IMG/VR virus record: IMGVR_UViG_3300035228_001001 | Coordinates: 1-37,852 of that record | Origin: a virus | Strand: one strand, 5' to 3' | Length of the DNA stretch: 37,852 nucleotides | In this document: positions 952 to 19,637 of the stretch, piece by piece | Numbering within the stretch: position 1 is the stretch's first letter | How the letters are laid out: the number at the start of each line of letters is the position of its first letter | Program-made: the position numbers and the translations under genes | The notes under the pieces: generated by a model | What the model saw: only the letters and a program-made list of their open reading frames with translations | The model's database searches: none | Told to the model about the DNA's origin: nothing

Positions 952-970
952 GCAACGGCATCACATCGAC

Positions 971-976: not shown

Positions 977-1003
977 TCAAGAGTACACAACACAGGACAC
1001 AGC

Positions 1004-1502: not shown

Positions 1503-1509
1503 CTAAATA
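1503..1509 (+). promoter_or_regulatory. T4-type late promoter motif (CTAAATA)
   Basis: CTAAATA resembles the late sigma (gp55-type) promoter of T4-like phages and stands at the start of the structural gene block. Transcription would begin a few bases downstream, at the edge of the leader hairpin at 1511-1533. Confidence 0.5.
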
Positions 1510-1510
1510 T

Positions 1511-1535
1511 TTTTGAAAATGGTTTTTTCAAAACC
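1511..1535 (+). other. Leader hairpin with two competing folds
   Basis: TTTTGAAAA at 1511-1519 is complementary to TTTTCAAAA at 1525-1533. An alternative stem pairs GGTTTT (1521-1526) with AAAACC (1530-1535). Placed right after a late promoter, it would lie at the very 5' end of the late message. It may stabilise that message or act as a switch. Confidence 0.45.
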
Positions 1536-1566
1536 TTAAAACCCAAAAAATTTTCCCAGCAAAAAA

Positions 1567-1818: not shown

Positions 1819-1909
1819 TCATGAAAGTCTCTCAGAGACTTTAGATTATTTGCATAATAATATTGAAGGTATCAAGCAAGACCTAGTAAAAGTTTCCAAA
1901 GCAGTCTAA
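1682..1909 (+). CDS. Small coiled-coil protein, 75 aa
   Basis: This is a highly charged helical protein. Residues about 2-34 show leucine/isoleucine heptads (QVLLKLSERLTHLDQRISQL), and a second helical stretch near the C-terminus (LDYLHNNIEGIKQDLVKV) suggests another coiled-coil segment. The start is supported by AGGAG about eight bases before the ATG. The stop shares a base with the next ATG (TAATG), so it is coupled to the 309-aa protein. Its place among spike and baseplate genes suggests a small virion or assembly protein, but I do not recognise the family. Confidence 0.7.
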   Translation: MEELQKQQQSMEQVLLKLSERLTHLDQRISQLERPTLMYRRPSGRDHESLSETLDYLHNNIEGIKQDLVKVSKAV

Positions 1910-2838
1910 TGCCCGTCGCAATTGTCCCCAACGAACAAGTCCTAGGAGCTGGAGCAGGTTTTGTATTAAACCCTGCACCGAACGTGGTATTATACCAAGA
2001 TATGATTCGGATGGGACCAAATCCCAACATGTATGAGTTAATCAATCCATCGATGCGGATTGATGTGGTAGCGACTGGCGGATGCCCCTTACCACTGGTT
2101 CCCGAGTTAATCACGGGTATATCCATTAAACCTGGGCATGGGCATCCCACGCCAGGTGGAGCAGGGTGCAGTGTTGCAACAATGATTGATATTGCACCAG
2201 CGCCAGTACCGAACATCCCTGAGATGCTAATGATTAGGGGTTTTAGCGAACCTTACATGGAATATGGAACAATCGCATCCCCACCTGTTCCAGCACTCTC
2301 ATTACCTTCGCCACTCATTGGATATATTTCAGAGAAATATTTTTATGATGCAGAGTTCATCTATGCGACATATTATGATCCATATGCAGATGTCATACCA
2401 GATACCTTCCCAATCCAGAAGCAGAACCGTATGACAGCGATTTCTTTATTAAATGGGAAGCGTAGTAGGTTATTCAGTGAATTTGACAGTGGGTTAGATC
2501 AGGTCACCGATGCTATGTTTGGGACGGGGGCACCGATACCATTAAATGTTATAACTGATGAAAGTGCATTACTACCGAATTTAACAGGTGTGCAGAATAC
2601 TTATGGTAATGATTATCTAAAGAGTGTAATACCAGAGACATCATTCTGGATTAAATTCAAACCATCGTTTATAAAGACGATGATATTTTACTACACTGTT
2701 GTTGTAACTCATACATGTCCACCATATGTGACTACATTCTTAGGTCAAATGACGGTACATAATGGATGGACCCCTTTTGCGAACAGGCTTGCATACTACA
2801 TAGATAATCAAGTAGGATTTTTGGAGGCACCAGTATGA
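1909..2838 (+). CDS. Unrecognised 309-aa protein coupled to the PAAR gene; probable virion or spike-associated protein
   Basis: I do not recognise the family. The N-terminal 120 residues are rich in Pro, Gly and Met with repeated PxP turns (for example GPNPNMYELINPSMRI and IDIAPAPVPNIPEML) and two short Gly/Cys-bearing loops (GGCPLPLVP, GGAGCSV). That is the style of a beta-structured particle protein. The C-terminal 180 residues look more globular, with aromatic stretches (EKYFYDAEFIYATYYDPYAD) and a hydrophobic segment (TMIFYYTVVVTH) that is too short and polar-flanked to be a sure membrane helix. The gene is tightly coupled on both sides: TAATG upstream and ATGA into the PAAR gene. In T4 the PAAR protein caps the gp5 spike, so a spike or hub role is a reasonable inference, not shown. 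Confidence 0.7.
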   Translation: MPVAIVPNEQVLGAGAGFVLNPAPNVVLYQDMIRMGPNPNMYELINPSMRIDVVATGGCPLPLVPELITGISIKPGHGHPTPGGAGCSVATMIDIAPAPVPNIPEMLMIRGFSEPYMEYGTIASPPVPALSLPSPLIGYISEKYFYDAEFIYATYYDPYADVIPDTFPIQKQNRMTAISLLNGKRSRLFSEFDSGLDQVTDAMFGTGAPIPLNVITDESALLPNLTGVQNTYGNDYLKSVIPETSFWIKFKPSFIKTMIFYYTVVVTHTCPPYVTTFLGQMTVHNGWTPFANRLAYYIDNQVGFLEAPV

Positions 2839-3170
2839 GTAATCCCACAAGTATTACTGGAGCAGGTGCTGGTGGCACCCTACGACCCATCAGTCGTCTT
2901 GGAGATATTACGACTGGTCACCAATGCTGGGCACCCACAGTAGGCACCTCAGCGTCTCTTAACGTCTTCTGTAACGGTCAAGCAGTACATATGGTAGGAA
3001 ATACCTTTACACCTCATACATGCGGCACAGACGTTCACCCAGACATTGCTGCAAAGGGTTCAACTAGCGTTAGAGTAAATGGAATGGATATTATGAGGTT
3101 AGGGGACATTTTAGCACCTGGAGGAGCTCTAATGGCACAAAGCACATTTAATGTGTTTGCCAAATCCTAA
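2835..3170 (+). CDS. PAAR-motif tail-spike tip protein (T4 gp5.4-like), 111 aa
   Basis: PAAR proteins form the sharpened tip of contractile-tail spikes. They fold as a small cone with a zinc ion held by His and Cys near the apex. The family pattern is visible: an early strand (ISRLGDITTGHQC), Gly-rich loops, and the repeat-like segment INVxGxxxxRxGD, seen here as VRVNGMDIMRLGDIL near residue 82. Candidate zinc ligands are His and Cys in GHQC, in TPHTC, and in DVHP. Length of about 110 aa fits T4 gp5.4. The gene overlaps its upstream neighbour by ATGA. Expected position is the end of the tail spike, under the baseplate hub. Confidence 0.88.
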   Translation: MSNPTSITGAGAGGTLRPISRLGDITTGHQCWAPTVGTSASLNVFCNGQAVHMVGNTFTPHTCGTDVHPDIAAKGSTSVRVNGMDIMRLGDILAPGGALMAQSTFNVFAKS

Positions 3171-3184
3171 GGGTGTGATATAAT
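3157..3184 (+). promoter_or_regulatory. Strong sigma70-like extended -10 promoter inside the structural block
   Basis: TTGCCA at 3157-3162 (five of six) and TATAAT at 3179-3184 (six of six) are spaced by 16 bases, and TG stands one base before the -10 (extended -10). This is the best housekeeping-type promoter in the window. It sits at the end of the PAAR gene, 25 bases before the 49-aa basic gene. It would let host or early polymerase transcribe 3209 onwards. Confidence 0.65.
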
Positions 3185-3208
3185 AGTATAGTCAATCAAA
3201 TTTGAATT

Positions 3209-3358
3209 ATGGCAAAGAGCAGAGTTGGATTATCAGGTGCTGACACAATCGAGTCAATTCCAAAGCGTACTCGTCAAGGACGTGGTAAGCACACCAAGTA
3301 CACACCAACATCACGTAATGCTGCTAAGAAGCGTTATAGAGGACAAGGTAAAGGATGA
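3209..3358 (+). CDS. Very basic 49-aa protein
   Basis: The product has 7 Lys and 7 Arg against 2 acidic residues, concentrated in the C-terminal two thirds (IPKRTRQGRGKHTKYTPT, AAKKRYRGQGKG). It is Gly-rich and probably unfolded until bound, consistent with binding DNA, RNA or an acidic protein surface. I recall similar short proteins from other cyanomyoviruses but know no function. The start ATG lies about 18 bases after the predicted start of the sigma70-like promoter and has no Shine-Dalgarno. The stop overlaps the next ATG (ATGA), so the two are coupled. Confidence 0.7.
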   Translation: MAKSRVGLSGADTIESIPKRTRQGRGKHTKYTPTSRNAAKKRYRGQGKG

Positions 3359-4020
3359 ATTTAATTTGCAATCTTCCTGCAGAGAAAGTTTGGGTTCGTA
3401 GGGAATACTTACGAGATCATCAAGATGGACATGGGGAGTTTGTTGAGGGCGTCTGGGTTGCTGCTAAAAGCATACCTGGACGTGCTTTTTACTTTGAGAC
3501 ATACTTACCACAATATGGTGCAATGTATGATAAACTACCCATTAGTGCATTTGTACGATCCCCCGAAACCCCAGTCATAGACATGAGTTTGGAGAATTTA
3601 CAATTCTGGAATTGCATGGACTATGGCGTTATGGCAATTAATAAAGGGTTTGTTTCATCCATGGATTGTGAAGTCTTCACTAGAGACCATGGTCTTATGA
3701 GAGGACAATACTTGTTTACACTTGACAACTATCATGCAAATCCAGATGTAATAGATAATAATGTAAGTGAAGTGCCTCAAGAGCACAAATCACATAATTG
3801 CATCGCATTGAACAACGGTCAGTATGCATTGTATCCTAATAATAGGATGCGTCTGTACGACCTCTCTATAACCCCTGAGGAACCCAAGTTCCCTGACTTT
3901 AAAGTATCTACCATAGAATACCAAGTAGAGGCAGGAATTGACTGGGGACGCCTTGGAGACACTGATGATTATTTCTGGCAAACACAAAAGGAAAAAAACA
4001 ATGGGAAACAGCAGAACTGA
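3355..4020 (+). CDS. Conserved-type cyanophage protein of unknown function, 221 aa
   Basis: This is a soluble protein of about 26 kDa, rich in Tyr, Phe and Trp, with beta-strand and turn character (EGVWVAAKSIPGRAFYFETY; FWNCMDYGVMAINKGFV). There is no signal peptide or transmembrane helix. The C-terminus is short, basic and polar (KEKNNGKQQN). Proteins like this often lie just before gene 25 in cyanomyoviruses, as far as I recall, but I cannot name a domain. The context (between spike-tip and wedge genes) suggests a virion or assembly role. However, it lies downstream of a sigma70-like promoter as well as in the late block. It overlaps the following small gene by 20 bases. Confidence 0.75.
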   Translation: MNLICNLPAEKVWVRREYLRDHQDGHGEFVEGVWVAAKSIPGRAFYFETYLPQYGAMYDKLPISAFVRSPETPVIDMSLENLQFWNCMDYGVMAINKGFVSSMDCEVFTRDHGLMRGQYLFTLDNYHANPDVIDNNVSEVPQEHKSHNCIALNNGQYALYPNNRMRLYDLSITPEEPKFPDFKVSTIEYQVEAGIDWGRLGDTDDYFWQTQKEKNNGKQQN

Positions 4021-4204: not shown

Positions 4205-4597
4205 ATGCCCACGTTCCAGACGTTTAAAGACTTGAGCGTTACGTTTAAGAAGCATCCTGTAAACGATGATATCGTAGCAGTGAAAGACAAGGCAGCTATC
4301 GTTCAAGCGATTACTACCTTGCTTCTTACTAGAAAGGGTGAACGACCATTTCAACCAGATCTGGGTTGTGGTATTTACGCTACGTTGTTTGAACCACTTG
4401 ATTATGCCACTGCTGGTATGATTAAGAATGAAGTTGTAACCGTTTTAGCACAATACGAACCACGTATCGTCGTTAACGATTGTGTTGTATCTCCTGATGA
4501 ACAAAACAATGGTTATGAAGTAGAGTTGTTTTTTACCATTGTTGGTAGAGATGACACACCAGTGGCAATAGACTTCTTCTTAGAGCGTACACGATAA
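4205..4597 (+). CDS. 25: Baseplate wedge protein gp25 (GPW_gp25 family), 130 aa
   Basis: gp25 is a core piece of the contractile-tail baseplate wedge. It is the structural equivalent of TssE in type VI secretion and helps start sheath assembly. The family hallmarks are present: the segment TRKGERPFQPDLGCGI around residues 43-58, the LFEPLD helix start, and the EPR motif in QYEPRIVVNDC near residue 95. Length (130 aa) agrees with T4 gp25 (132 aa). No Shine-Dalgarno is obvious. The gene follows a late promoter directly and shares a base with the next start (TAATG), so it is coupled to gp6 exactly as expected for proteins of the same wedge complex. Confidence 0.95.
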   Translation: MPTFQTFKDLSVTFKKHPVNDDIVAVKDKAAIVQAITTLLLTRKGERPFQPDLGCGIYATLFEPLDYATAGMIKNEVVTVLAQYEPRIVVNDCVVSPDEQNNGYEVELFFTIVGRDDTPVAIDFFLERTR

Positions 4598-6393
4598 TGC
4601 CATATACCCAGGTAGCAAATTTAGACTTTGAAGATATCAAAGCAGCTCTGAAGGATTACCTTAGAGCTAATTCAGATTTTACTGATTATGACTTTGAGGG
4701 ATCAGCATTATCGACACTGATCGACACACTCGCCTATAATACGTATTATACGGCGTTTAACACTAATATGGTAGTCAATGAACTATTCATTGATAGTGCC
4801 ACCTTGAGAGACAACGTAGTAGCAATTGCGAAGCAATTAGGGTATAGACCCAAAAGCGTTACGTCTCCAACAGCAAGTATTTCATTTTCGGTCACATATC
4901 AGAACCCAACATTCGATACTGAGATTATCCTGAAGAAAGGTTCTGGTTTTATTGCATCGTTTGACAACACAATCTATCAGTATGTAACTCCATCTGATAC
5001 TACTGCACAAATTATCAATGGCGTAGCAACATTTGAAGATGTTACTATTCGTGAAGGCACAGTACTGACGAATACATTTACTGTCGATAATTCATTAACA
5101 AGTCAAAGATACATTCTTGATAATGTAGGAATTGATACAAATACAATTAGAGTTCGTGTATTCCCTAGTGGTGGTAGCTTTAGCGAACCTTTTGTACTTG
5201 CAGATAATATTTTAGGTGTAGATGGCACTTCCAAAGTTTTCTTTATTGATGAAATTGAAGATGATCGTTTTGAGATCATCTTGGGCGATGGTGCCTTAGG
5301 TAAAAAAGTTGAAAGTGCATCAAGAATTGAAGTTTCTTACTTGACGACTTCTGGTCCTGTATCAAATGGTGTTAAAACTTTTGTCTTCACAGGTGTTTTA
5401 GAAAACCCTGATGGTATCTCACCTTCTAACTTTGACGTTAACATCTTGTCATCAGTTCGTTCTGCTGGTGGTGAGGATAAAGAGACTACTAAACAGATCA
5501 AGTTCAATGCACCCAAGTTATATGGCGCACAAGACCGTGCAGTGACTTCAGGAGACTACGAAGCAATCGTTAGGAAGATCTACCCCTCTACTAGTGATAT
5601 CATCATCTACGGCGGCGAGGATGCAGTTCCACCTCAGTATGGTAAGGTATTCGTTGTCCTTAAACCTAACGATGCATCGTATCTGACTTCATTTACAAAG
5701 CAAGAGATTAGGAAAGAACTCAAGAAGTATGTTGTTGCATCGGTAGAACCAGAAATTATTGATCCATCTGTACTGTTTGTAGAGATGACAAGTAAAATTT
5801 ACTATAATCGTGGTATGACTGATAAGACACCTGCACAGATTAGAGACCTTGCAATCAACTCAGTACAGCAGTATATCGATAATACTGATACCGAAAAGTT
5901 TAATGGTAAGTTTAGATATAGTAAATTTGTAGGTGTTATTGATGATGCAGATAGATCAATTAATTCAAATTTAACAAGCGTTACAATGCGAAAGGATTTC
6001 TATCCTTCACTTAACTCAAGTTTTTATTATGAGATCTGTTTCCAAAATGAATTTGATAAGGATTGTGACGAACCAGTTCTGTCGTCAACTGGATTTAGAG
6101 TAACTGAGTACCCAGAATTTGATGTATACATTGAAGACAGGGATGGCAAAATTGTCCTATATAGACTAGACGCTGTAACTGCTGAAAAAGTTGTACTGAA
6201 CAGCGATATTGGCGATATTAATTATGCTAAGGGTGAGTTGCAAATGTATAACTTGACTATTATCAAAGGATCATTCTTTGACAATAGAATTTCTGTAAGG
6301 GTAAAACCACTTCGTAATGACATTCAAGCCCTCCGTGAGGTTTACCTCGATGTTGATGTGGCAAATTCCAGTTTCACTGCATACAAAGAGTAA
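4597..6393 (+). CDS. 6: Baseplate wedge protein gp6 (Baseplate_J family), 598 aa
   Basis: gp6 forms the inner ring of the T4 baseplate with gp25 and gp53, and also binds gp7. Visible hallmarks are the N-terminal helical part with DTLAYNTYYTAFNTNMVVNE and LRDNVVAIAKQLGYRPKS (residues about 45-90), then the Baseplate_J beta domain. The conserved segment RAVTSGDYEAIVRKIYPS with IIIYGGEDAVPPQYGKVFV lies around residues 313-355. The C-terminal region (about 440-598) is beta-rich. Length is close to T4 gp6 (660 aa). Its ATG overlaps the stop of gene 25, and the 7-like gene starts five bases after its stop. Confidence 0.95.
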   Translation: MPYTQVANLDFEDIKAALKDYLRANSDFTDYDFEGSALSTLIDTLAYNTYYTAFNTNMVVNELFIDSATLRDNVVAIAKQLGYRPKSVTSPTASISFSVTYQNPTFDTEIILKKGSGFIASFDNTIYQYVTPSDTTAQIINGVATFEDVTIREGTVLTNTFTVDNSLTSQRYILDNVGIDTNTIRVRVFPSGGSFSEPFVLADNILGVDGTSKVFFIDEIEDDRFEIILGDGALGKKVESASRIEVSYLTTSGPVSNGVKTFVFTGVLENPDGISPSNFDVNILSSVRSAGGEDKETTKQIKFNAPKLYGAQDRAVTSGDYEAIVRKIYPSTSDIIIYGGEDAVPPQYGKVFVVLKPNDASYLTSFTKQEIRKELKKYVVASVEPEIIDPSVLFVEMTSKIYYNRGMTDKTPAQIRDLAINSVQQYIDNTDTEKFNGKFRYSKFVGVIDDADRSINSNLTSVTMRKDFYPSLNSSFYYEICFQNEFDKDCDEPVLSSTGFRVTEYPEFDVYIEDRDGKIVLYRLDAVTAEKVVLNSDIGDINYAKGELQMYNLTIIKGSFFDNRISVRVKPLRNDIQALREVYLDVDVANSSFTAYKE

Positions 6394-6398
6394 AGTAA

Positions 6399-9300
6399 AT
6401 GGCTGCTAAGACTAAGAGAATTTCTACTCTAATCGAGTCACAACTACCTGAGTTTATTAATACCGAGTATGAATTGTTTGGTCAATTTATACAAAAGTAT
6501 TATGAGCAGCAGGAAGTACAGGGTGGCGTCTTAGATATTGCTAATAATTTTTTAAAGTATCGTGACATTGACTTTTACGAGAAGAAGCTTCTCAAAGAGA
6601 ACGATACTCTAGTTGATGGTATTAATAAAACTGATGATACTATTGTTGTACTGGATGCTACTTCATTCCCAGAGTACAATGGTTACATTAGAATTAATGA
6701 TGAGATTATTTTTTATGAAGAAAGAAATGAAACTACCTTCTTCAATTGCTCTCGTGGTGTAAGTGGAAATACTACATTAGGTGATCTATATGATCAATCT
6801 AATTTTGAAGGAACAGATTCTGCTTCCCACAATCCAGGTTCTACTGTACATAACATTAGTAACCTATTTTTGTATGCTTTCATCAAAAGTTTTGAAACCC
6901 AGTATCTAGGTTCTTTTCCAGAGAAATATCTCAGAGGAGAAGTTGATAAGAGAACTCTTATCAAAAATATTCAAAAATTCTACAAATCGAAAGGAACTTC
7001 TAGTTCAATCAAGTTTATCTTCAATACCGTTGTCACAACAGACATCGAAGACAAACCAGAAGTATATAATCCAAAAGATTTTACTTATAAAGCATCATCA
7101 TCTGATTGGGTTAATGTTTATGCTCTAAAGTGCAAAATTGTATCGGGTGATCCAAAATCATTAATTGGAAAGAAAATTGTACAGGAACCTACTACAGAGT
7201 ATGGTTATGCTTCTGCTACTGTTGATAATGTAAGAGCAGATGGAACAAAAGATAACGAAGTAATTTACAATATTATCCTTGCTCCAGAAACTGTTAATGG
7301 AACGTTTGGTGTTTCAACCAAAACTCTGCTAGAGAAAGATCTATTATCTGCTGCTGCAGAAGGAAATAGAATTAACGTTAATTCAACACTAGGTTGGAGT
7401 AAAAAGGGATCGATCCTTATTGATGAAGAGATTATTGAGTTTGATGATAAGACAACAACTCAGTTTGTTATCAAAAACAGAACATCACCTGTGCTACATT
7501 CCAAAGGTGCGTCTGTATACAAACCAGTTAATATTATTGGAAAAAATGTTGTTTTATTGAGCCTTGGTGTTGTATATAATGCTACTGTAAAGAATGGTCA
7601 ACCTTTCTCTGCTATTGGTGATAAACTGCAAGTATCAAATCCTGGATTTGAAACATCAGATGTAAAGATTGTTGAGACTGGAACTAATACTCCTAGGTGG
7701 AACTTGAATGTTTTACCAAGTATTTCTACTACTACAAATCAAAATATTTCATCACAACTAGATGAGATCAAACCAAATGTATCTTCTATCTTTGGTGATG
7801 ATCAATATTATTACATCACTAGTTCCAGTTTCCCGTCGCACAATATTTTAGATAAGACTGCAAGACAAACTGATACTGTAAGAGATCAAAAACTATTAAG
7901 GATTATCAGAAAAAGTCCAATTGCAACAACTGAAAGATACAAAACCCCAAATAGAGATGTTGGTATTTTACTCAATGGTGTTCCTGTTTATAGTCATAAG
8001 GACTTTAATGAAATTCAGTATGGGCAATTAACAAAAATTACTGTTGGTAACAGAGGAAGGGGATATACTTCCGCTCCATATGTTCTTGTTAATGGTTTAG
8101 CAAATAGAGCAAAAGCGTATCTAATTGGTTCTTCTATTGACAGAATTGAGTTAAAAACAACCAATTCATATACTAACATGCCTACATTGGAAATCACTTC
8201 TGGTAGAGGTGGTGTAGGTAAAGCTATCGTAACTGATGGTAAGATTACTAGCATTCAAATAGAAAATCCTGGTAAGTTTTATTCTTCTCCCCCAATTGTT
8301 AGAATTACTGATATTCAAGGAAAAGGTCGTTTCGCAGATTTTAGTGCTGTTGTAGATGCTACTGGACAAATTACAGATATTGTTCAAAATGCTCCTGGTA
8401 ATCTATACACACAACAAAATGTTCGAGTTGATATTATTGCTGTTGGACAAGATGCATCTGCTGTCCCGACTTTAACTACTTGGACTTTCAACCGCTACGA
8501 AAGACTAAAGTTTCAATTAGATACCAGTAATGGACAACTATTTGAGAACTATAATCCAACACTATATTTTGGATATGGTTGTGTTGCAAACCCAACTTCT
8601 CTGCGTACATCTCTGAGTGACAACATCACTGGTACTGGATTAGAAACTGCTACGTTAACACACTCTCCTATTCTTGGATTTGCATACGACGGCAATCCAA
8701 TTTACGGTCCATATGGTCACAGTGATCCTACTGACCCTTTATCTGCTATCGCTAGAATGACTACCAGTTATGCGATTAAGGATAATCGTCAAGGTGGTCC
8801 GTCTGTAACAGAATATCCAATTGGATTATTTACTCAAGACTATCAATACGAGCATAGATCTGGTTCTCTAGATGAGAATAATGGTAGATTTTGTATTACT
8901 CCAGACTATCCCGAAGGAACATATGCATATTTTGTAACAATTGATGCGTCTCTTAATCCTTCTTTCCCATATACAGTTGGAGATAACTTCTACTCTCTTC
9001 CTGTAGATAGCAACTACAATTCCAACATTACTCAAAACGACGTTCCAAAAAACTCCAAGAGGTTGTTTACTCCTGGTATGCAGGGAAATGGAGAAGGATT
9101 ACTTGCAACCGTTGACACTGTAAAAGCAGGAACTGTACAGGGTGTTCAAGTAGATAACTCTTCTCCAAATTTTTCAGTTAACTCTAAAATTTTCTTCAAC
9201 AATGATGAAACAGAAGGATTTGATGCTGAAGCAATTGTTTCTTCTGTTGAAGGAAAACCAGTCTCATATCTACAATCAAAAGAAGATAAGGTAGTAAAGC

Positions 9301-12300
9301 TTGTAACAATTCAAAGTGCATACTTATTTGAAGATGATTTTCTAAGACAACCATCTTCTAATGCATCTGGTCAAATTGTTGGTACTGTACAAAATGACAA
9401 TTTAATTGTTCTCAAGAACGTTGTTGGAACATTTGACAATACGGGAACATTCTCTGCCGATATTAAAACCTTTACTTTATTTTTGGATCAAGATAGCACA
9501 TACACTAAAGGTGCTACTATCAGTCTCACAGATGGCATTAATGACCCAGTTGCAACAGGTGAGGTTCTAGAAGGAACTAGCAGACAAAACTCTGTTTTAA
9601 TTAAAGTCCTCAGTGGTACTTGGATTATTGATGATACTTATACTTTAAGGTCTGATGATCTCTTTAACACTGTAGGATCTAGAATTGTCGTATTCACTTC
9701 TTTAAGTGATAATCTCAATCCATTTGATGTTAACCAGAGTGTTGCTTTAATAGAAACTACCGATAATCACGGATTGGGTATTGGTGATAGAGTAACTATT
9801 GATGTCAATCCAGACGATGCTCTTAAGACCAAGACTTACTATCTGAGAAAGAGACTATTCCAAAATGTAACATTTATTACACCAAGTGAAAACACATCAA
9901 TAACAGATACGGGTGTTGGAAGATTTAATATCTTAAATGGTGGTGCTTTCTACACTGAAGATAACTACACAAATGTTGCTTTAACTGGTGGATCGGGAAC
10001 TGGTGCAAAAGCAACAATTCGTGTTTCTGCTGATGGTATTGTAAATCTCATCACTATTACAGATAAAGGATCAGGGTATAAGAGAGGAGAATACTTAGGT
10101 GTTGATGATGAGAGTTTAGTAAGATCTCAGGGTAATGATGCCATAGCAAGTACACAGAGACTTATTGTTTATATTGCTCACGTTGGTTTTGCTAAAGGTG
10201 AAGTGATATTGAATGTAGATAATAGTGATGGATTTGTTGATAATGACTTAATTCAGATTGGTGAAGAAGTTGTCAAGATTACAGACATTAGTGGAAATGC
10301 TTTACTAGTAGAAAGAGCACAGGAAGGATCATCAGACATTGACCACTTTGATGGTGAAAGTGTATCTCTCTACAAACCAAGATATCACTTTACACCAAAC
10401 TACGAGATCTCTCCTGGAAACGCAGGATCTGGATTTATTAAGTCGTATGATCTTGAGACACAGAATGCTTTAATTGAGTATAATTATTCTGCTACCCCAC
10501 AAAATGCATCAGTTCTAACTACTGGACAAAGATTTTTTGATCCTGGCAATCCAAAAAGACTTGTAACAGTAGCAACAGCTTCTGATCCTGTTTACAAGTA
10601 TGAATTTTCTGAAGACGATGTAACTTTCGTCACCAATCCAAATATCAAAATTCAAGAATTTTACAAGTACATTTTTGATACTTCACACCCATCACTAGTA
10701 GGAACTTTCTTTGAGTTAAGTCCAAGTACAGGTTATTCTCTATTGACCTTAGAAAAAAACGATTCTAATATCCTTCCTGGAAACTTAGGTTCTTTCAGTG
10801 ACGTAAAGTTTGGTTTTGGTCCTAGAACTGCTAATAATAACTATTCAGAAAAAGTAGGAACAAGTTATACAAATTTCTATTACTTTGATAAAAATGGAGT
10901 TGTAGATTCAGAGAGGCAATATCTGTCTATAATCAATGATCCATTACAAGGAGAAAAAACAGTAACTTATGTTACTAGAAACAGATTTGTCTATGATGTA
11001 ACTTCCACACCACTATTTGATGGTTCGGGTACTATTTCATATACAACCTCTGGACAGTTTGCTGTTGGAAATATTAATTCTATTGGTGTAATTAATCTAG
11101 GAAACAATTATAAGAAACCACCAATCATTCTTGGTGCAAATCCATCAGCACCATTTAAAGCTGAAGCGACTATTTTATTTGATGATTTGGCAAATATTAT
11201 TACTGGAGTTCGTATTGACACATTTGGTTTAAATTATTCAAAACCAATTGCGTTAGTTTCTGGTAATGGAACTGGTGCTAATTTGCAAGTAACGACCAGA
11301 AATGATGGAAGTCTATTTGCTATTAATATTATTAGTGCGGGTAGGGGATATACTAAGGCACCTACAATTGAAATTATTGAAAGTGACGTTAATTTATTTG
11401 TTGAAAGTGACAACATTGGTGTTCCTTCAAGTGTATCAATTCAAAACAATGGTGGAGCATATCATTTAGATAATACCGTAGCATCTAGCGTTACTTCCAA
11501 GTACACTATCTCAACATCAAATAGATCTCAGAAAAAATTTATCGAAGGTGAGAAGGTAGTACAGAAAATTAATGGTGAAATTGTTCTTAGAGCGGTTATC
11601 TCAGAGATTACTCCAGGATCAAATCTAATCAAACTAGAACAAGTTCGTGGAATTGTTAGAGAGGGTGTTAAAGTTGACGGTTTAGTCTCTCAATCTTTTG
11701 CTGTTGTTAAGTCAGTCTTTGTAACAGAGTTTAATACAGAAATTAGTAGTTTCTATGATAACATTGGATATTATACTTCTGATAGAGGTAGAGTTAGTAC
11801 ACAAAACCAAAGACTAACTGATAGTTTCTTCTATCAGGATTATTCGTATGTTGTCAAGTCAAAGACATCTATTGAACAGTGGAGAGACTTAATTAAATCC
11901 ACTACTCACCCTGCTGGATTTAAACTGTTTGGTCAAGTTGATGTTGAGACTGATAGTTCAATCACAATGCCAGATGGCAAGAAAAACAAGTCATCATCAT
12001 TCTCAACAATTGAACTATGGGATCCAAACAAGAACAAAATTACTGTAGAACACAGAAAACGTGTTATTACAAATACTATTGTTAAAACAGAAAATACTAG
12101 AATTCGTAAAACTAGTGGATCTGCTGCATCTTCCGAATTTAACTTTACGGAGATGAGTTCGTTTGATGTCAGAGTTTACAACACAACTCCTGGTTACTAT
12201 GACAGCGTTACTAATCCACCAGCACCATTTCTTCCCAAACCATGGTGGACGAAAAATCCATTTACTGGCATTGCTGCAGAAGATGTCTTAAATTCTAACG

Positions 12301-15300
12301 ATAATGTTGGAATTCTAGGTGATACCACTTTCCAATTGAGAGATAATAGAGATCAACCATTTACTCCATACAGTTCAGAAAATTTAATTATTAGTTTAGA
12401 TGGTATCTTACAGGAACCTGGAGTTGCTTATACTGTAAGTCAAGATAAAATTATTTTCTCAGTACCTCCGTTGGGAACGTATAAAAAACTGACTGGAGCT
12501 AATCAAACTGCTCTGTCTGAGTATGTGGGTGTAACTGCTACTATAAGATACATCGCATTTAAAGATAGTCAGTATAACGATAGGTTCTTTAGAAAAATCA
12601 GAAATATCTTCCAACGCAACGGAAGGTGGATTGATGCTGCAAACCAGATTGACAGAAACATTGACTTTATTGTTAACGAATCTGTTGGATATGGTAGAGA
12701 AAAGTATCCAGATTTAGATTGGAGCACAAAACTTGATGATTATCAAGAAGCCGTTCGTTATGTTGCTCAATCGTTCGACCATGATCTAAGATTTGGCGGA
12801 AACACTAAAACCACCAATTATGGAAGTGCTTTAGCAGAACTTCAGTATATTTCTAGAAACAAAGAAGCATCACTTGAGATTTTTAAATATGCATCCAAGT
12901 TATCAAATCTCGCTATTAGAAATTGGGATACAACTCAAGCGGTATCATATATTACAGGATCAACTACGGTAACTGTTGCCAATAGCAATGATCTAGTTAT
13001 CGGTATGCACATCAGTTCTGGTAGATCTTTTCCTGATGGAACTAAAATTACAGAAATTATTGATAGAACTACTATCAAAGTTTCTAGAGCTCCGTTCGTA
13101 AACTCAGGTGGTGCTGGTGGTGCTACATTTGGGAACACCAGTTTAAGTGGCGAAACCAACGGAACTCAGACATCAATTCCCACGAGCATTGGTGTTATTG
13201 AACCAGGAAATCAATTTGCTGTTACTCCTGACGATACCTTTACAGTACCACTATCTTTTGCTGGAACAGCAGAAGCAACATTCTACTTAAGTGGTATAAA
13301 CAACGGTACATTTTATGATGCTGCAAATCTAATTGAAACAAACAAAACATATATCCAAAGTGAAGTTAGTAATTTCACTTGGGACAACTACCCTGCTTTA
13401 GCATCTAATAACGTTTCTCAAGAGAAATGCTTCAGGGACATTGGTTATTTGGTTGATGCTATGGTACACCACCTCAAGTTTGGTGGTAACGAGAGAGTTG
13501 TTAAATTTGGACAACTATATTATACACAAGGATTATATCCTTATGGAGAGGATCTAACGTATCTTAAGACTGCATTAGAGCAAGAAGCTGCTGATTATGC
13601 TTGGGATTTAGTTGGGGATCTTGCTGTCAAAGCAATGAAAAACATCCTCCCAAGTGCAACTTATGGAACTTCGCCTGCTCCTGTAGTTGATAATGATGTT
13701 GCCGTAGATAGTCAATTCCCATACTGTGTCGAAGTAGAAAGTGCTATCAATAATATGGTCACTATTGTCAAAGATATTATTGACAATGGTCCTGGTAGTA
13801 TTATTCCTACTGCAGTAAATGAGAACAAATCAGGAAATTGGACACCAACTAAAACATACTCCAATTATGCAATTATCGCAGATCCAGAGTTACCAAATAA
13901 TGAGTGCAATGATGTAATATCTGCACTGGAAAATTTATACGATAACTTAACGGATGTAATTTTTGAAAGAACTGTTAATGTTTCTAAACCTGATTTTATT
14001 AACGGCGAAGAAAAAGTATTTGATCTTTATTGGGAAAACGGAGATCCTGTAATCACAGAAAAAGATGAAAACATTCTATTGACTGTTAACGCTGTTCTTC
14101 AGCAAACTAAGTTTACTCCAAACTATCCTGGACAAGATGCTTACTATATTAATAGAGAAACTAATCCAAACCAAATTGTATTTGACACAGCACCAATTTG
14201 GGATCAAGATCTTGGTGCTAGAACTCTTGGGGAACCAACTAATGTTGAGAAAGTCAATGGTCATGGTATAGGAAACTATAAGAGACTTACTCTCGATGCT
14301 GCTCTTATTAATAACAAGAGAAAAGGTCCTTTCTTAATTTTAGATCTAGAAGATCTAACTGTGCAACCAATTGATGATCCAGATTTCTTACTGGTCTTTA
14401 TTGACGGTGTTTTGCAGCAACCTGTAAAATCATATAGTGTCTCTGGTCCAAGTATTTCATTTACTTTCCCAATCACTACTCAAATGAAAGTAGACATGAG
14501 ATATGTTTACGGTAGAGATATTGGACAGATTTTAAGAATATTTGATTATGAAAAAGGAAGATTATTTGCCAAGTCTACTCTAAAATTTACTGCTACTGGT
14601 GGTTTAAGTGAATTTATGACTGGATTATGGAGAGAGAATAGCAGAGGACTTCCTTTACAAATATATCAAATTCGAGATAATGGATTTTACAATTTCCTAG
14701 GTCAAATTACTGGTAGTCGTATTAATGGAAATAATTGTCAATTCTTGCTGTTTGGCAATAAAGCAGAAGTATTGACAGATAGACCATTTACATTTACTGT
14801 AAAGGGCGATTATAGTTCAACAATAGACATTTCTTTTACTGACGCAACGTTGGATTATGAACTAGATGCAGATGGCAAGATCTTGATGAGTGGTAATGAT
14901 CAATTGTGGTATGGAACTCGTAGAAGATTTGATTATAAAACACCGTTTGTAAATCTTGCAACTGGCGATGTTATCAAAGTTGATGGTGAAGATAAGTTCA
15001 GACGAATTAAAGATTTGCCAACAAAGGCAAGAAGTAAAGATGAAAGACTGAACAGCAACTCGTCTGATGTTGTATATGGCACTGTAGAAATTGATAATTA
15101 CAACGGTATCACTAGAGGTGAAGGTTTATCTGTAGTTGCAACTATCGAAAATGGTATCGTTGTAGACTTAACTTGGAACCAACGTAGTTATAATCCTATT
15201 ACGCAACCAACTGCTTATCAATATTACACTCCCCCTGTACTGCACTTCATTCCAAAAAATGGAAGCGGTGGTGGAGCAAGAGCTGTTGTAATTGTAAGTA

Positions 15301-17723
15301 AAGGTCAAGTTCTTAGTGTTGATCTTGTTGATGGTGGTTCTGGATATTCAGTAGCACCCGATGTTGTTGTTGCCAGAAGATATGTTGTTTACACTGAACG
15401 AGATATTGCAGTATCTGGAGTAGGTCTTAATATTCAGAAAGAGATTAAGCCCTCTCTAAATGTAATTTCTACCGTTTCTGTACTTGGTAATCAGCGTCCT
15501 GGAATTAACACCTTTACTTCTATTCTGTTTAGAAGTCCAATTGAACATGATCCAACAACAAATCAAAAGATTACAGCGATCATTCAACTACATGGTTTAG
15601 GAAGAAACGTTGGTAATAGTTTAAGTGGTGGATTAGATGAGATCTTACAGAAGCGTAACGAGAACATTATAGTTGAAGCGTTTGATCTTCGTCATCAAAA
15701 TACTGAGATTAGCATCTCTCTTGCTACTCCTGCAAGTGATATTGTTGATATCTTATCTACTTCTACCCTCAGAAGGGCACATTATGATAGTGTTCAGGTT
15801 ACAAACACTGTAACAAATGTAATTAACAACGCTCAAATTAGTGATGTCAGTCAGTTTGCTCCTGGAGCATACTTGGATATTGATCTAGATCCAACCGACA
15901 ACGTGGTTTACATTCCAGATACATCACAGTTCTCCAGAACTGGTGAGATCATGGTTGGTGATGAGATTATCAAGTATTATCTCAAGCTTGGTGATCGTTT
16001 CATGAAACTTCGCCGTGGTGAGAAAGGAACTACTGCGAAGTTCTGGCCAGCAGGAACATTCATCAGACAACTACCTGTAGAGTTGATTGTCGGCACTGCT
16101 ATTGCTGGTGTAGTAACTGTACAGTCTGTAGCAGATGTAACATCACTCAAGGCAGTTTCTGAAGTTGGTGGTAGTGAACAGACCAATACCAGAAGATTTG
16201 AAGATGTATCTGTAACTATGAGTGAAACAACTCGTAGAAATATTACAGCAGAACTACAAATTGGTATTGATCTTGTATCGATCAGCGAAGTAATATTTAA
16301 GAATGATACTAAGTACGAACTTCGTGCTAGAGCAATTGAAATGTCTGATGAGACTGTTTCTGTAGTTGAGACAGATATTCAGCGTGAATTACTAGTAGAT
16401 ACAGAACCCGTTGTAACTGTTCTAAGTGCAAGAATTCATCCTGCTGTACTCACTGAGGTTGCTTCTTCGTCTACTATTAGAACTGAGGCTATATCTGTAA
16501 TTCCTTATGAGAGTGTCTTCTCTGTAGATTACACTGAGCATAAAGAAACAACTATTAAAGGTGAACTTCAAAAGTTATTAACAGCTAATACATTTGAGGT
16601 AACATTAACAATCCTAGATGTTACGGTAAGACCAACTGTTACATCAACTTCCGAAGTCACTATTGTAAATGAGATTACATCTAAAGTTTCTACTGAACCA
16701 CTAGAAACAGCATTTGAAACATTAGCTCATAAGGAAACGTTCATTAAGTTTGAGAGAGATCGTTTTAGCAGCAGCGAAGATAATCTTCAAGGTGTCATCA
16801 CATTTAAATTTGAGGTTACTGAAACTAATGTTGGTGTTAAAGTTGAACCATCAATTCAGACAACCACGTTTATATCACATACAAGTGAATTTGAGACATC
16901 AGTAAAACAAGAACCTACCGTAGTATCAATTACAGAAATTGAAGTTTCTAACTCTATAGATCTCCAAATTCAAACAGTACATTCTGAATTCACAATGAGA
17001 AAGAACCAACTTGAGGTTCTTCTATTCACTCCACCATCTGGTGTAATTGATGGATATGTCGAGAGTGTACTAATTGACGATCCAATAAATACCAGAAATA
17101 ATGGTTTTGTTGATATTGCTGGACCTCCTACATACAGTGTAACCAAACGTAATTCTACTGTTGTCATAGTTGAAAATCAGTCAACTGGATCTGATACTGG
17201 ATACTTTGGAACTTATGAAAAAACAAATGTAGGACACACTATCAGTCACTTCAACGGTATCTTCGATGACGGTACTTCAAGAGTTTCTGGATTATCACTC
17301 CAAGAAGTTGACTTCTACTATGCATCTCTAACACTTAGAGACTTTGAAGAAAGAGCAGATTCAAGTTACACTCTATCTGGCAAGTATTTCCGCCTTGTGC
17401 CACCATCAATACAAAACCCTGTTCAGATAGCAACAAGTACTTCCGCAATCCAAGACGGAAGTTATGGAGGAATTGATGATTTCATCTCCGTATCTTCCAC
17501 TCTATACTACCCAGATTCGGGTACATTGATGGTATACACACCATATATTAATGCTACCCTTGGTGGCGGTGGTATTCAACTAATTACATACGAATCTAAG
17601 ACTGCGACTTCGTTTAACGGATGTCGTGTTGTTGATGAAATTGGTATTGAACCTGGATCAGGATCAACAATAGGTGGATATATACTGCTGGATTCAACGG
17701 AAATTCACCCCTATGCAACTTAA
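6399..17723 (+). CDS. 7: Giant gp7-like baseplate wedge protein with multiple inserted modules, 3774 aa
   Basis: Position between genes 6 and 8 and sequence signatures point to gp7, the largest wedge protein, but T4 gp7 is about 1030 aa. Residues 1-230 resemble the C-terminal part of T4 gp7: LIESQLPEFI, then VDKRTLIKNIQKFYKSKGTS and SSIKFIF (T4: ADKRDAVARFF...YSTKG..ASYKFLF). The following T4 segment with SYYV...W...HPVGF recurs about 1,600 residues later as SYVVKSKTSIEQW and HPAGF (His near 1837). Between them lie DEII modules, GSGY beta repeats (from about 545), a YHYH-like domain (about 755-870) and a cupredoxin-like FDTSHPS segment (about 1425). After them come DGxLQxP modules (about 1996, 2555, 2667), two DAANxI/GGN helical modules (about 2079, 2303), more GSGY, a Thr/Glu/Val-rich stretch (about 3245-3535) and a beta-rich tail. 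The frame is unbroken for 11.3 kb. Confidence 0.8.
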   Translation: MAAKTKRISTLIESQLPEFINTEYELFGQFIQKYYEQQEVQGGVLDIANNFLKYRDIDFYEKKLLKENDTLVDGINKTDDTIVVLDATSFPEYNGYIRINDEIIFYEERNETTFFNCSRGVSGNTTLGDLYDQSNFEGTDSASHNPGSTVHNISNLFLYAFIKSFETQYLGSFPEKYLRGEVDKRTLIKNIQKFYKSKGTSSSIKFIFNTVVTTDIEDKPEVYNPKDFTYKASSSDWVNVYALKCKIVSGDPKSLIGKKIVQEPTTEYGYASATVDNVRADGTKDNEVIYNIILAPETVNGTFGVSTKTLLEKDLLSAAAEGNRINVNSTLGWSKKGSILIDEEIIEFDDKTTTQFVIKNRTSPVLHSKGASVYKPVNIIGKNVVLLSLGVVYNATVKNGQPFSAIGDKLQVSNPGFETSDVKIVETGTNTPRWNLNVLPSISTTTNQNISSQLDEIKPNVSSIFGDDQYYYITSSSFPSHNILDKTARQTDTVRDQKLLRIIRKSPIATTERYKTPNRDVGILLNGVPVYSHKDFNEIQYGQLTKITVGNRGRGYTSAPYVLVNGLANRAKAYLIGSSIDRIELKTTNSYTNMPTLEITSGRGGVGKAIVTDGKITSIQIENPGKFYSSPPIVRITDIQGKGRFADFSAVVDATGQITDIVQNAPGNLYTQQNVRVDIIAVGQDASAVPTLTTWTFNRYERLKFQLDTSNGQLFENYNPTLYFGYGCVANPTSLRTSLSDNITGTGLETATLTHSPILGFAYDGNPIYGPYGHSDPTDPLSAIARMTTSYAIKDNRQGGPSVTEYPIGLFTQDYQYEHRSGSLDENNGRFCITPDYPEGTYAYFVTIDASLNPSFPYTVGDNFYSLPVDSNYNSNITQNDVPKNSKRLFTPGMQGNGEGLLATVDTVKAGTVQGVQVDNSSPNFSVNSKIFFNNDETEGFDAEAIVSSVEGKPVSYLQSKEDKVVKLVTIQSAYLFEDDFLRQPSSNASGQIVGTVQNDNLIVLKNVVGTFDNTGTFSADIKTFTLFLDQDSTYTKGATISLTDGINDPVATGEVLEGTSRQNSVLIKVLSGTWIIDDTYTLRSDDLFNTVGSRIVVFTSLSDNLNPFDVNQSVALIETTDNHGLGIGDRVTIDVNPDDALKTKTYYLRKRLFQNVTFITPSENTSITDTGVGRFNILNGGAFYTEDNYTNVALTGGSGTGAKATIRVSADGIVNLITITDKGSGYKRGEYLGVDDESLVRSQGNDAIASTQRLIVYIAHVGFAKGEVILNVDNSDGFVDNDLIQIGEEVVKITDISGNALLVERAQEGSSDIDHFDGESVSLYKPRYHFTPNYEISPGNAGSGFIKSYDLETQNALIEYNYSATPQNASVLTTGQRFFDPGNPKRLVTVATASDPVYKYEFSEDDVTFVTNPNIKIQEFYKYIFDTSHPSLVGTFFELSPSTGYSLLTLEKNDSNILPGNLGSFSDVKFGFGPRTANNNYSEKVGTSYTNFYYFDKNGVVDSERQYLSIINDPLQGEKTVTYVTRNRFVYDVTSTPLFDGSGTISYTTSGQFAVGNINSIGVINLGNNYKKPPIILGANPSAPFKAEATILFDDLANIITGVRIDTFGLNYSKPIALVSGNGTGANLQVTTRNDGSLFAINIISAGRGYTKAPTIEIIESDVNLFVESDNIGVPSSVSIQNNGGAYHLDNTVASSVTSKYTISTSNRSQKKFIEGEKVVQKINGEIVLRAVISEITPGSNLIKLEQVRGIVREGVKVDGLVSQSFAVVKSVFVTEFNTEISSFYDNIGYYTSDRGRVSTQNQRLTDSFFYQDYSYVVKSKTSIEQWRDLIKSTTHPAGFKLFGQVDVETDSSITMPDGKKNKSSSFSTIELWDPNKNKITVEHRKRVITNTIVKTENTRIRKTSGSAASSEFNFTEMSSFDVRVYNTTPGYYDSVTNPPAPFLPKPWWTKNPFTGIAAEDVLNSNDNVGILGDTTFQLRDNRDQPFTPYSSENLIISLDGILQEPGVAYTVSQDKIIFSVPPLGTYKKLTGANQTALSEYVGVTATIRYIAFKDSQYNDRFFRKIRNIFQRNGRWIDAANQIDRNIDFIVNESVGYGREKYPDLDWSTKLDDYQEAVRYVAQSFDHDLRFGGNTKTTNYGSALAELQYISRNKEASLEIFKYASKLSNLAIRNWDTTQAVSYITGSTTVTVANSNDLVIGMHISSGRSFPDGTKITEIIDRTTIKVSRAPFVNSGGAGGATFGNTSLSGETNGTQTSIPTSIGVIEPGNQFAVTPDDTFTVPLSFAGTAEATFYLSGINNGTFYDAANLIETNKTYIQSEVSNFTWDNYPALASNNVSQEKCFRDIGYLVDAMVHHLKFGGNERVVKFGQLYYTQGLYPYGEDLTYLKTALEQEAADYAWDLVGDLAVKAMKNILPSATYGTSPAPVVDNDVAVDSQFPYCVEVESAINNMVTIVKDIIDNGPGSIIPTAVNENKSGNWTPTKTYSNYAIIADPELPNNECNDVISALENLYDNLTDVIFERTVNVSKPDFINGEEKVFDLYWENGDPVITEKDENILLTVNAVLQQTKFTPNYPGQDAYYINRETNPNQIVFDTAPIWDQDLGARTLGEPTNVEKVNGHGIGNYKRLTLDAALINNKRKGPFLILDLEDLTVQPIDDPDFLLVFIDGVLQQPVKSYSVSGPSISFTFPITTQMKVDMRYVYGRDIGQILRIFDYEKGRLFAKSTLKFTATGGLSEFMTGLWRENSRGLPLQIYQIRDNGFYNFLGQITGSRINGNNCQFLLFGNKAEVLTDRPFTFTVKGDYSSTIDISFTDATLDYELDADGKILMSGNDQLWYGTRRRFDYKTPFVNLATGDVIKVDGEDKFRRIKDLPTKARSKDERLNSNSSDVVYGTVEIDNYNGITRGEGLSVVATIENGIVVDLTWNQRSYNPITQPTAYQYYTPPVLHFIPKNGSGGGARAVVIVSKGQVLSVDLVDGGSGYSVAPDVVVARRYVVYTERDIAVSGVGLNIQKEIKPSLNVISTVSVLGNQRPGINTFTSILFRSPIEHDPTTNQKITAIIQLHGLGRNVGNSLSGGLDEILQKRNENIIVEAFDLRHQNTEISISLATPASDIVDILSTSTLRRAHYDSVQVTNTVTNVINNAQISDVSQFAPGAYLDIDLDPTDNVVYIPDTSQFSRTGEIMVGDEIIKYYLKLGDRFMKLRRGEKGTTAKFWPAGTFIRQLPVELIVGTAIAGVVTVQSVADVTSLKAVSEVGGSEQTNTRRFEDVSVTMSETTRRNITAELQIGIDLVSISEVIFKNDTKYELRARAIEMSDETVSVVETDIQRELLVDTEPVVTVLSARIHPAVLTEVASSSTIRTEAISVIPYESVFSVDYTEHKETTIKGELQKLLTANTFEVTLTILDVTVRPTVTSTSEVTIVNEITSKVSTEPLETAFETLAHKETFIKFERDRFSSSEDNLQGVITFKFEVTETNVGVKVEPSIQTTTFISHTSEFETSVKQEPTVVSITEIEVSNSIDLQIQTVHSEFTMRKNQLEVLLFTPPSGVIDGYVESVLIDDPINTRNNGFVDIAGPPTYSVTKRNSTVVIVENQSTGSDTGYFGTYEKTNVGHTISHFNGIFDDGTSRVSGLSLQEVDFYYASLTLRDFEERADSSYTLSGKYFRLVPPSIQNPVQIATSTSAIQDGSYGGIDDFISVSSTLYYPDSGTLMVYTPYINATLGGGGIQLITYESKTATSFNGCRVVDEIGIEPGSGSTIGGYILLDSTEIHPYAT

Positions 17724-17792: not shown

Positions 17793-19637
17793 ATGGCTGC
17801 AATTATCTCAGATAAATTTCGCATTTTTAATGCGAAACAATTTCTAGAATCACTTTCGGAAGGACCAACTGTTAATCCTGACCAGAGTGACGAACGTACA
17901 AGAATGTACTTTTTCGTGGGTCGCCCACAACCTTGGAAATCTTACTTGGAGATTTACTCCAATAGTGGCGGAAATTTTACGGTAGGTAACGAAGTATATG
18001 CTGGAACATATAACACATTCCGTGGAACCATCGCCGCAGTATATGATAGTGCCCTCCTCCTGACCGATATTTTTGGTGCTAACGGTGTTGGATCTACTTC
18101 TACTGCTGGATCCACACTAATTGAAACTGCTGACGGGGGAGCTAGCGGAACTGGTGTCACTGCTAAAACTGGGGTATACCGCTACGCTACAGAAGAAATT
18201 CCTCCTTTCCCTCTCGACAACCTCACGGAGAAGAGAGCACTATATGATGAAATTATTGCAGCAAAACGTATCTATGATACTCAGGCAAGAACTGTAATTC
18301 GTCGTTATAACTACGACTTCAGTGTCAATCCTAAGTTTGATATGTGGAAACCCGATTATTCGGAAACCCTAGCAACTTCGGGTCGTATTGGTAAGGCTGC
18401 TGCTACTAGTGCAGAAAGCATCGCTGATGCTAAGTTCTATGTAATGAACTCTGATTACGAAGTATTTAAGTGTCTTTATAACGGTGAGAACCCAACTAAC
18501 CTTTCTGGTCAGAACGTAAGTGAGCAACCTAGCAGAGCAGGTGCTAACTACAACTCAACCACTGGTATCTATACTGAAACCACTGGTGCTGGTTACATCT
18601 GGAAGTTTATGTATAAGATTGAGACGAATGACGTTCTCAAGTTCCTCTCTTCGGACTTCATGCCAATCGCACTTCCTAGCGATACAGCATCAGGTCGTCC
18701 TGCTGTTACTGCTGCCGCAGTTGCTGGTGCAGCTGACGTTGTTCTAATCGAAGATCCAGGTGCTAACTTCCCTGCAGGTGAAACTCTATACACACCAATT
18801 CTAGGTGATGGTTCTGGTGGTGTTGTCGAATTCACTACTGATGGAACCACTGGTGAAATCACTGGTGCTAGTGTTGTTGCTCGTGGATCGGGTTACACCT
18901 ACGCTAACATTCTCCTAATTAACGGTAACGTTTATGAGGAGCAAGCACTTTCTACAACTTCTTCTGTTGGTGGAACTGCTACTGGTGCTCTAGAAATTGT
19001 ACTTCCTCCTCAGGGTGGTCACGGTGCAGATCACGAAACTGAGCTTAACGGCAAGCGTGTAATGACCAACATCCGCCTAACCTATGATGAAGGTTCAGGT
19101 GACTTCCCTGTTGATAACGACTTCCGTCGTATCGGTATTATCCGCGATCCTAAGGTCTGGGGTGGTTCTTCTTTCCTAGTTGACGACACAGCAACTAACC
19201 TAAGAGCTCTCAAAGTTGATAGTGCTACTGCAGACTTCATCCCTGATGAAGTAATTACGCAGACCGTAACTGGTGGTACTGCAAAAGGAACCGTTGTTTC
19301 CTGGACACTAGACGAAGGATCCACAACTGCTGGTGTTCTTAAGTATATCCAGACTACTGATGCACATACCGATCAAGGTGTTGTAAGAGGATTTGAAAGC
19401 AACGGTGTCAATGCTGTCTCTGGCGAACTTTCCGCTGCAGCGGGTAACGTTGACATTGACTACTTTGGTCCTCTATTAGGTGTTGAGTTCCCTGGAACCG
19501 ATGCTGGTAGCGCAACTGGTATTGCCAACCCTGAGATCGAGAACAACTCTGGTGACGTTATCTACATTGAGAACCGTCGTCTGATCACTCGTGCTCCTGA
19601 CCAGATTGAAGACATCAAACTAGTCATCGAATTCTGA
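17793..19637 (+). CDS. 8: Baseplate wedge protein gp8 with an internal beta-repeat insertion, 614 aa
   Basis: gp8 is the dimeric wedge protein that bridges gp10, gp7 and gp6 in T4. T4 gp8 (334 aa) signatures appear in order. The N-terminus has SDKFRIFNAKQFLES and YFFVGRPQPW (T4: SKFR..., ITFGRSEPW). KFYVMNSDYEVFKCL and YIWKFMYKI (near 268) follow. Then come MTNIRLTYDEG with FRRIGIIRDP (near 420-450), and the end has VIYIENRRLI and DQIEDIKLVIEF (T4: MIYMENRPPI, DQTEEINILFTF). The extra length comes mainly from residues about 300-410, which carry the GSGY-type beta repeat found in the neighbours (VLIEDPGANF; VVARGSGYTYANILLING), and from a second variable stretch. AAAGGA precedes the start. A terminator follows 20 bases after the stop. 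Confidence 0.93.
   Translation: MAAIISDKFRIFNAKQFLESLSEGPTVNPDQSDERTRMYFFVGRPQPWKSYLEIYSNSGGNFTVGNEVYAGTYNTFRGTIAAVYDSALLLTDIFGANGVGSTSTAGSTLIETADGGASGTGVTAKTGVYRYATEEIPPFPLDNLTEKRALYDEIIAAKRIYDTQARTVIRRYNYDFSVNPKFDMWKPDYSETLATSGRIGKAAATSAESIADAKFYVMNSDYEVFKCLYNGENPTNLSGQNVSEQPSRAGANYNSTTGIYTETTGAGYIWKFMYKIETNDVLKFLSSDFMPIALPSDTASGRPAVTAAAVAGAADVVLIEDPGANFPAGETLYTPILGDGSGGVVEFTTDGTTGEITGASVVARGSGYTYANILLINGNVYEEQALSTTSSVGGTATGALEIVLPPQGGHGADHETELNGKRVMTNIRLTYDEGSGDFPVDNDFRRIGIIRDPKVWGGSSFLVDDTATNLRALKVDSATADFIPDEVITQTVTGGTAKGTVVSWTLDEGSTTAGVLKYIQTTDAHTDQGVVRGFESNGVNAVSGELSAAAGNVDIDYFGPLLGVEFPGTDAGSATGIANPEIENNSGDVIYIENRRLITRAPDQIEDIKLVIEF

Follow-up and report, generated by a model that had tools for sequence, protein, structure and literature searches.

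Which protein serves as gp7 in the baseplate wedge of marine T4-like cyanophages? According to a pelagimyophage study, pelagi- and cyanomyophages lack T4 gp7, with VrlC substituting for it (PMC7029224), and a 2010 cyanophage comparison (Sullivan et al. 2010) listed gp7 only in the non-cyanophage core (PMC3037559). The question is raised by a 37.9-kb IMG/VR virus record (IMGVR_UViG_3300035228_001001; 37,852 nt, the whole of which is referred to as the window), in which one uninterrupted open reading frame (ORF) of 3,774 amino acids is located on the plus strand at 6399..17723 (PHROG phrog_4406/2885). A first-pass annotation, made from the sequence alone, had proposed that this region encodes the core of T4 gp7, split by a very large insertion. 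The best explanation of the data as a whole, including the inferences on arm and adsorption described below, is probably that the ORF encodes gp7, a subunit of the baseplate wedge, in a marine T4-like cyanomyophage; both the identification as gp7 and the position of the insertion have good support. Several cyanophage GenBank records already name this protein gp7, and no description of the split-core architecture was found in the literature searched (subscription papers were outside the search).

Identification of the gp7 core

Two signatures, KRTLIKNIQKFYKSKGTSSSIKFIF (residues 184-208, with KGT at 198) and SYVVKSKTSIEQW...HPAGF (residues ~1816-1841, with HPAGF at 1837), were present where the first-pass annotation had placed them, and aligned to KGI738 and HPVGF884 of T4 gp7, respectively. 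The distance between them was 1,639 residues in the window versus 146 in T4 (K738 to H884), the latter being close to the 150-200 initially estimated. A profile comparison with T4 gp7, which the annotation had recommended, was run by hhalign using profiles built from window-type proteins and short relatives, with T4 left out. In the window-anchored alignment, both segments were similar to T4 gp7 and in consistent order: residues 185-322 matched T4 725-841 (97.7% probability, E 2.2e-12) and residues 1802-1854 matched T4 851-901 (72.6%, E 3.2e-5), and under a 50% column rule the match of the N profile widened to T4 639-836 (99.0%, E 7e-18). The scores of 101.6 and 39.6 exceeded the maxima of 26.1 and 21.8 obtained with 100 column-shuffled T4 profiles, and the profiles of T4 gp6, gp8, gp9, gp10, and gp11 gave no more than 1.1% probability against those of the window. 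When a profile of window residues 1-355 and homologues was searched against 177,635 distinct PDB sequences, gp7 of KP1 (3.1e-10) and T4 (5.1e-9) were detected, with nothing else below 0.02; with the A4 profile, T4 gp7 aligned over 647-833. On the other hand, since BLASTP of T4 gp7 against the window protein matched the two segments at no better than E 0.02 and 8, single-sequence evidence was insufficient, and phmmer of the whole window protein, or of Cr30 gp7, found no gp7 in PDB; profiles were required.

Four anchor hidden Markov models (HMMs; H, K, V, and C), built without T4-type proteins, delimited the core on the plus strand. Anchor H (residues 5-58; 6411..6572) was a weak counterpart of the helical domain of T4 gp7 (~643-694). 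Anchor K (residues 160-214; 6876..7040), containing KGT, corresponded to T4 722-754 (KGI738; E 1.5e-8 for the HMM without T4), and anchor V (residues 215-318; 7041..7352) to T4 domain V (766-835, E 8e-4); in hhalign, residues 215-322 aligned to T4 ~755-841, and Gp7_5th of Pfam covers T4 gp7 766-861. Anchor C (residues 1776-1865; 11724..11993), with YQDYSYVV...HPAGF, corresponded to T4 844-912 (HPVGF884, E 0.0024). Positions 206-278 of PF23786 (Baseplate_wedge) fell on anchor C; the window scored 17.7-18.4 bits over this segment, under the gathering cut-off of 27, whereas short relatives scored 31-49 bits and all 30 members of A3 matched at E≤0.01. A relation of the KGT motif to that of P2 gpI, suggested by eye (HCHKGTIGAI), is not claimed, as hhalign against the single P2 sequence gave only 0.2%.

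The fold was examined in a natural short relative, L105 (602 amino acids, from an IMG/VR contig), and not in the window protein. Its AlphaFold model (mean predicted local distance difference test score, pLDDT, 72.9) was compared with 350,542 PDB chains by Foldseek, and the three matches below E 0.001 were all gp7: T4 gp7 in 5IV5 (5e-7), KP1 gp7, and T4 gp7 in 5HX2. Sequence and fold comparison thus showed that the core consists of four ordered segments, the helical N-terminus, KGT helices, domain V, and HPAG segment, homologous to T4 gp7 ~643-912. Among the features of the gp7 family, the helical domain with the KGT/KGI segment, domain V, and the HPxGF segment after it were present, and the gene lies between those of gp6 and gp8, as in T4. 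T4 residues 1-640 had no counterpart (the core begins at residue 5), and no Gp7_6th match (domain VI) was found by Pfam, including in the C-terminal extension; both parts were treated as additions of the T4 group and not as defining features because T4 gp7 also greatly exceeds the short relatives and XM1 gp17 in size.

The plus strand of the window carries a T4-like cyanophage baseplate cluster in the order gp25, gp6, the gp7 ORF, gp8, and two more large structural ORFs. A gp25 homologue (sheath initiator; 4205..4597) matched phrog_261, a baseplate wedge subunit (E 3e-54), a gp6 homologue (4597..6393), the wedge partner of gp7, matched phrog_219 (E 1.7e-204) and the Gp6-like helical domain PF21379 (E 3.4e-18), and a gp8 homologue (17793..19637) matched phrog_438 (E 1e-162) and PF09215 (Phage-Gp8). 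The nearest named relatives of the gp25-gp6 stretch by DNA were S-CAM4, ACG-2014j, and ACG-2014i. The S-RSM4 homologue had an architecture near-identical to that of the window gp7 (55% identity over 3,365 amino acids), with g25 at the same place relative to it, and this architecture was also found in at least 16 complete ORFs from viral contigs. PHROG and GenBank annotations tied both signature segments to "gp7 baseplate wedge initiator" genes; by tblastn, the first and second segments matched 479 and 473 phage records, respectively, and the gp7 N-terminus also matched phages of Sinorhizobium, Pelagibacter, Methylophilales, and Caulobacter. Upstream of gp25, a 221-amino acid ORF (3355-4020) gave no Pfam match at E 0.1, and its homologues are conflictingly annotated (ferredoxin, 2OG-Fe(II) oxygenase, or phosphoribosylaminoimidazole synthetase).

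The proposal that gp7 is absent from these phages, with VrlC as its substitute and the resemblance to T4 gp7 coincidental, is that of PMC7029224, and the listing in PMC3037559 and the empty phmmer search of PDB with the whole protein agree with it. It is nevertheless highly improbable when set against the PDB-wide profile match to T4 gp7 (E 5.1e-9), the four anchors in order, the gp6-gp7-gp8 synteny, the fold match of L105, and the separate VrlC-annotated gene downstream in P-HM2 and HTVC008M. The published absence is wrong for the core: because the core is present but split and diverged, the statement in PMC7029224 is contradicted and the listing in PMC3037559 is explained. gp7 is thereby located in cyanophages and pelagiphages.

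Site and length of the insert

The main insert (residues 319-1775; 7353..11723) comprises ~1,458 amino acids and replaces ~9 T4 residues (~836-843) at the end of domain V; the link between anchors V and C (V-C link) is therefore 9 residues in T4 versus 1,458 in the window. The initial proposal, in which a very large insertion divides the gp7 core at a single place, was borne out by the profiles, the L105 fold, the gp25-gp6-gp7-gp8 synteny, and a series of 96 homologues. The single huge insert stands, while its size (~1,600 residues, ~211-1811) had to be reduced and its limits moved: only part of the sequence between the signatures is insert, since residues ~215-318 correspond to T4 domain V. 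The extent initially given for the gene (6399-11940, ending at residue 1847) was too short, the ORF running on to 17723. The idea of insertion in one loop holds for the main site, and must be supplemented by a second insertion site between anchors H and K (residues 59-159; 6573..6875; ~100 amino acids, holding one M2 beta module at 77-135) and by a C-terminal extension of 1,909 amino acids (residues 1866-3774; 11994..17720). The gp7 family has at least three growth sites, of which the V-C link is the main one. The extra length is located N-terminally in gp7 of the T4 group, and at the V-C link and C-terminus in gp7 of cyanophages.

The survey covered 100 gp7 proteins of isolates and viral contigs; all four anchors were detected in 96, and in each of these they were in order. 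Since the HMMs were built partly from the surveyed sequences, this describes the architecture and is no independent test of detection. The V-C gap ranged from -1 to 2,698 residues: -1 in Ochrobactrum phage OC, 136 in pf16, 237 in DLP6, 420 in HTVC008M, 706 in phiM19, 990 in freshwater S-CRM01, 1,458 in the window, 2,246 in P-HM2, 2,617 in ACG-2014b, and 2,698 in P-TIM40. It was nearly constant (1,452-1,577) in the window's own clade. The second (H-K) site, ~100 amino acids in the window, had 5 in most short relatives and ~610 in ACG-2014b and P-TIM40. Chance or an assembly artefact was rejected as the origin of the insert, the same ORF and spacing occurring in many independent contigs and in isolates. 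A single insertion point in the conserved wedge core of naturally occurring phages thus accommodates between 0 and ~2,700 residues and, judging from these sequences, a large V-C insert of up to ~2,700 residues is general in cyanomyophages.

Several members of the series had features of their own. The P-TIM40 gp7 gene (NC_028663.1, 65082-87137; L267:583-21501) spans 22,056 bp, nearly 12% of the genome, and encodes 7,351 amino acids with the four anchors ordered. ACG-2014b gp7 (L265:1969-21237) has 6,422 amino acids, with the ~610-residue insert located between the helical domain and KGT segment. HTVC008M gp7 (L005:3748-6798) is annotated as "head closure Hc2", like the phrog_3465 and phrog_460 matches, and is gp7 by anchors and synteny. 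Aeromonas phage CC2 gp7 is encoded by two ORFs (L183:98-859 and 913-3600), and a "gp7b" is listed by BFVD for Aeromonas phage 65; the gp7 core and the T4-type N-terminal part may be separable.

A large loop may alternatively have been ancestral and lost in T4, as an insert of some size is present in most of the relatives sampled beyond the T4 group. This is unlikely, because two lineages distant from each other, the T4 type and that of Ochrobactrum phage OC, include zero-insert forms, and the content of the insert differed greatly among lineages. Very long structural chains are sometimes processed, and the giant chain may be cut by a protease after assembly, the insert either leaving the core or staying bound as pieces; the ORF was intact in many genomes, and we consider such cutting still less likely than an ancestral loop.

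Modules of the insert and C-terminal extension

Eight copies of a ~40-residue beta-repeat (R1) were detected in the main insert. Three were located by iterated HMM at residues 547-661 (8037..8381; E down to 4e-14), two at 1176-1254, followed by two M2 modules (~55-residue beta module) at 1267-1384 (9924..10550 together), and three at 1562-1687 (11082..11459). Most short relatives contained 1-4 copies of R1 and most large ones 6-10. The M2 and helical H modules recurred in the insert or C-terminal extension, the latter having H modules at residues 2063-2141 and 2293-2370, one clear R1 repeat, and M2 modules. A weak match to Pfam Phycobilisome at residues 2064-2106, below cut-off, coincided with a helical H module, and a relation to phycobilisome proteins was rejected.

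The remaining large structural proteins encoded in the window also contained R1, and modules appear to be common to its large structural genes. A 2,716-amino acid ORF (19725-27875; phrog_358, Pfam DUF4815), at a position annotated as VrlC in P-HM2, carries R1 repeats. A further long ORF (33101-37852; at least 1,584 amino acids and open at the window end) contains GxGY beta-repeats and helical "DAA..I..N..FI" modules resembling those of the gp7 C-terminal extension.

The main insert also contains a YHYH domain (residues 753-851; 8655..8951; PF14240, E 4.5e-28), with 99 bits against a cut-off of 25 over profile positions 91-185 of 193. By tblastn, 463 phage records (Synechococcus 372, Cyanophage 61, Prochlorococcus 24, Marine 5, and Actinomycetia 1) matched this domain anywhere in the record, inside gp7 or not, with phylogeny confounded with host; all but one were cyanobacterial or marine by name, and the numbers for Synechococcus, Cyanophage, and Prochlorococcus equalled those for the gp7 N-terminus. 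The domain has been predicted to be a metal-dependent hydrolase with a three-histidine zinc site (PMC7824862). A model of window residues 538-960 was beta-rich over its first ~160 residues (window ~538-695; pLDDT ~90), and gave no Foldseek match below E 0.3.

Several observations weigh against a gp7 with an adsorption arm. Anchor C was weak against T4 when taken alone (72.6%; HMM E 0.0024), though position, order, and controls agreed. The N-terminal helices of the L105 model had a pLDDT of ~40-50, with a predicted TM-score (pTM) of 0.44 for the model, and its Foldseek TM-score was only 0.12, the match being local; this value is low because the match spanned ~235 columns and the relative placement of domains was not modelled. 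S-CRM01 gp7, from a freshwater phage, has a 990-residue insert without YHYH, and the domain is therefore dispensable. The YHYH part of the 538-960 fragment did not model, and three conserved histidines and an aspartate were not found across 32 gp7-borne copies; since only H755 was invariant, with D764, the predicted three-histidine zinc site is unsupported for these copies.

Potential role of the enlarged gp7 and comparison with known systems

The core would still assemble with two gp6 chains, as in (gp6)2-gp7 of T4. At the V-C link, which would lie on the outer edge of the wedge, the chain would exit from the core, build a large beta-rich arm, and come back. This arm and the C-terminal extension may jointly carry the functions of adsorption and fibre docking, which T4 would serve by gp7 residues 1-640 and separate peripheral proteins. 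The arm may have been built up in steps, as ~40-residue beta-repeats multiplied and modules such as YHYH were captured. In contractile injection system (CIS) wedges, the gp7-like part is a hotspot of evolutionary re-engineering, binding different fibres (PMC8894135), and a 242-amino acid gp7 orthologue of phage XM1 holds tail spikes via an internal loop and its C-terminus (PMC10457771). Since these proteins bind fibres or spikes, the insert and C-terminal extension are, by analogy, most likely peripheral arms for adsorption or fibre docking; the insert may project from the baseplate and bind hosts or fibres.

The main rival is a purely structural role, in which the insert forms a covalent second baseplate layer or scaffold that braces the wedges and stands in for T4 gp10, gp11, and gp12, with no host contact. 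Most of the insert consists of repetitive beta modules that also occur in large structural proteins encoded nearby, T4 gp7 1-640 has no counterpart in the window protein, and domains of T4 gp7 contact gp10 and gp9 (PMC3004832), all of which accord with such a layer; the presence of the YHYH domain and the binding of fibres or spikes by gp7-like parts in other systems do not, and we regard it as doubtful. Returning to the adsorption arm, a broader and tentative proposal is that the ~9-residue link of the wedge core serves T4-like phages generally as a growth point, at which they built, module by module, a covalent baseplate periphery of up to ~2,700 residues within a single polypeptide; in marine cyanophages, this periphery would have taken the place of the proteins that separately form the wedge periphery and short fibres in T4. 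The insertion point found here extends the published idea of a gp7-like hotspot to extreme size; it also provides a concrete prediction for cryo-electron microscopy of cyanophage baseplates, together with a numbered target for questions on the docking of marine phages to Synechococcus and Prochlorococcus.

Among known systems, the gp7-like part of Alg12 (an extracellular CIS) and XM1 gp17 (a simple myophage) are, by description, likewise re-engineered wedge parts that hold fibres or spikes; they have small loops, not kilo-residue inserts. The short gp7 of Caulobacter Cr30, Pseudomonas pf16, Ochrobactrum OC, and Pelagibacter HTVC008M (PF23786) share the core, insertion point, and some of the same R1 repeats, but have a V-C gap of only -1 to 452 residues and no YHYH. 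The S-RSM4 homologue (CAR63348, "structural protein") and other cyanophage "gp7 baseplate wedge initiator" genes have the same whole architecture, whereas the insert size (1,450-2,700) and modules vary among cyanophage clades and their annotation is silent on the split core. T4 gp7 (PDB 5HX2 and 5IV5; PF21428 Gp7_helical, PF21427 Gp7_5th, and PF21456 Gp7_6th) has the same four core segments in the same order and the same gp6 and gp8 neighbours; however, its core is preceded by ~640 residues, its V-C link comprises ~9, and ~120-145 follow anchor C, while the window gp7 starts at the core and has ~1,458 and 1,909 residues at the latter two places, respectively.

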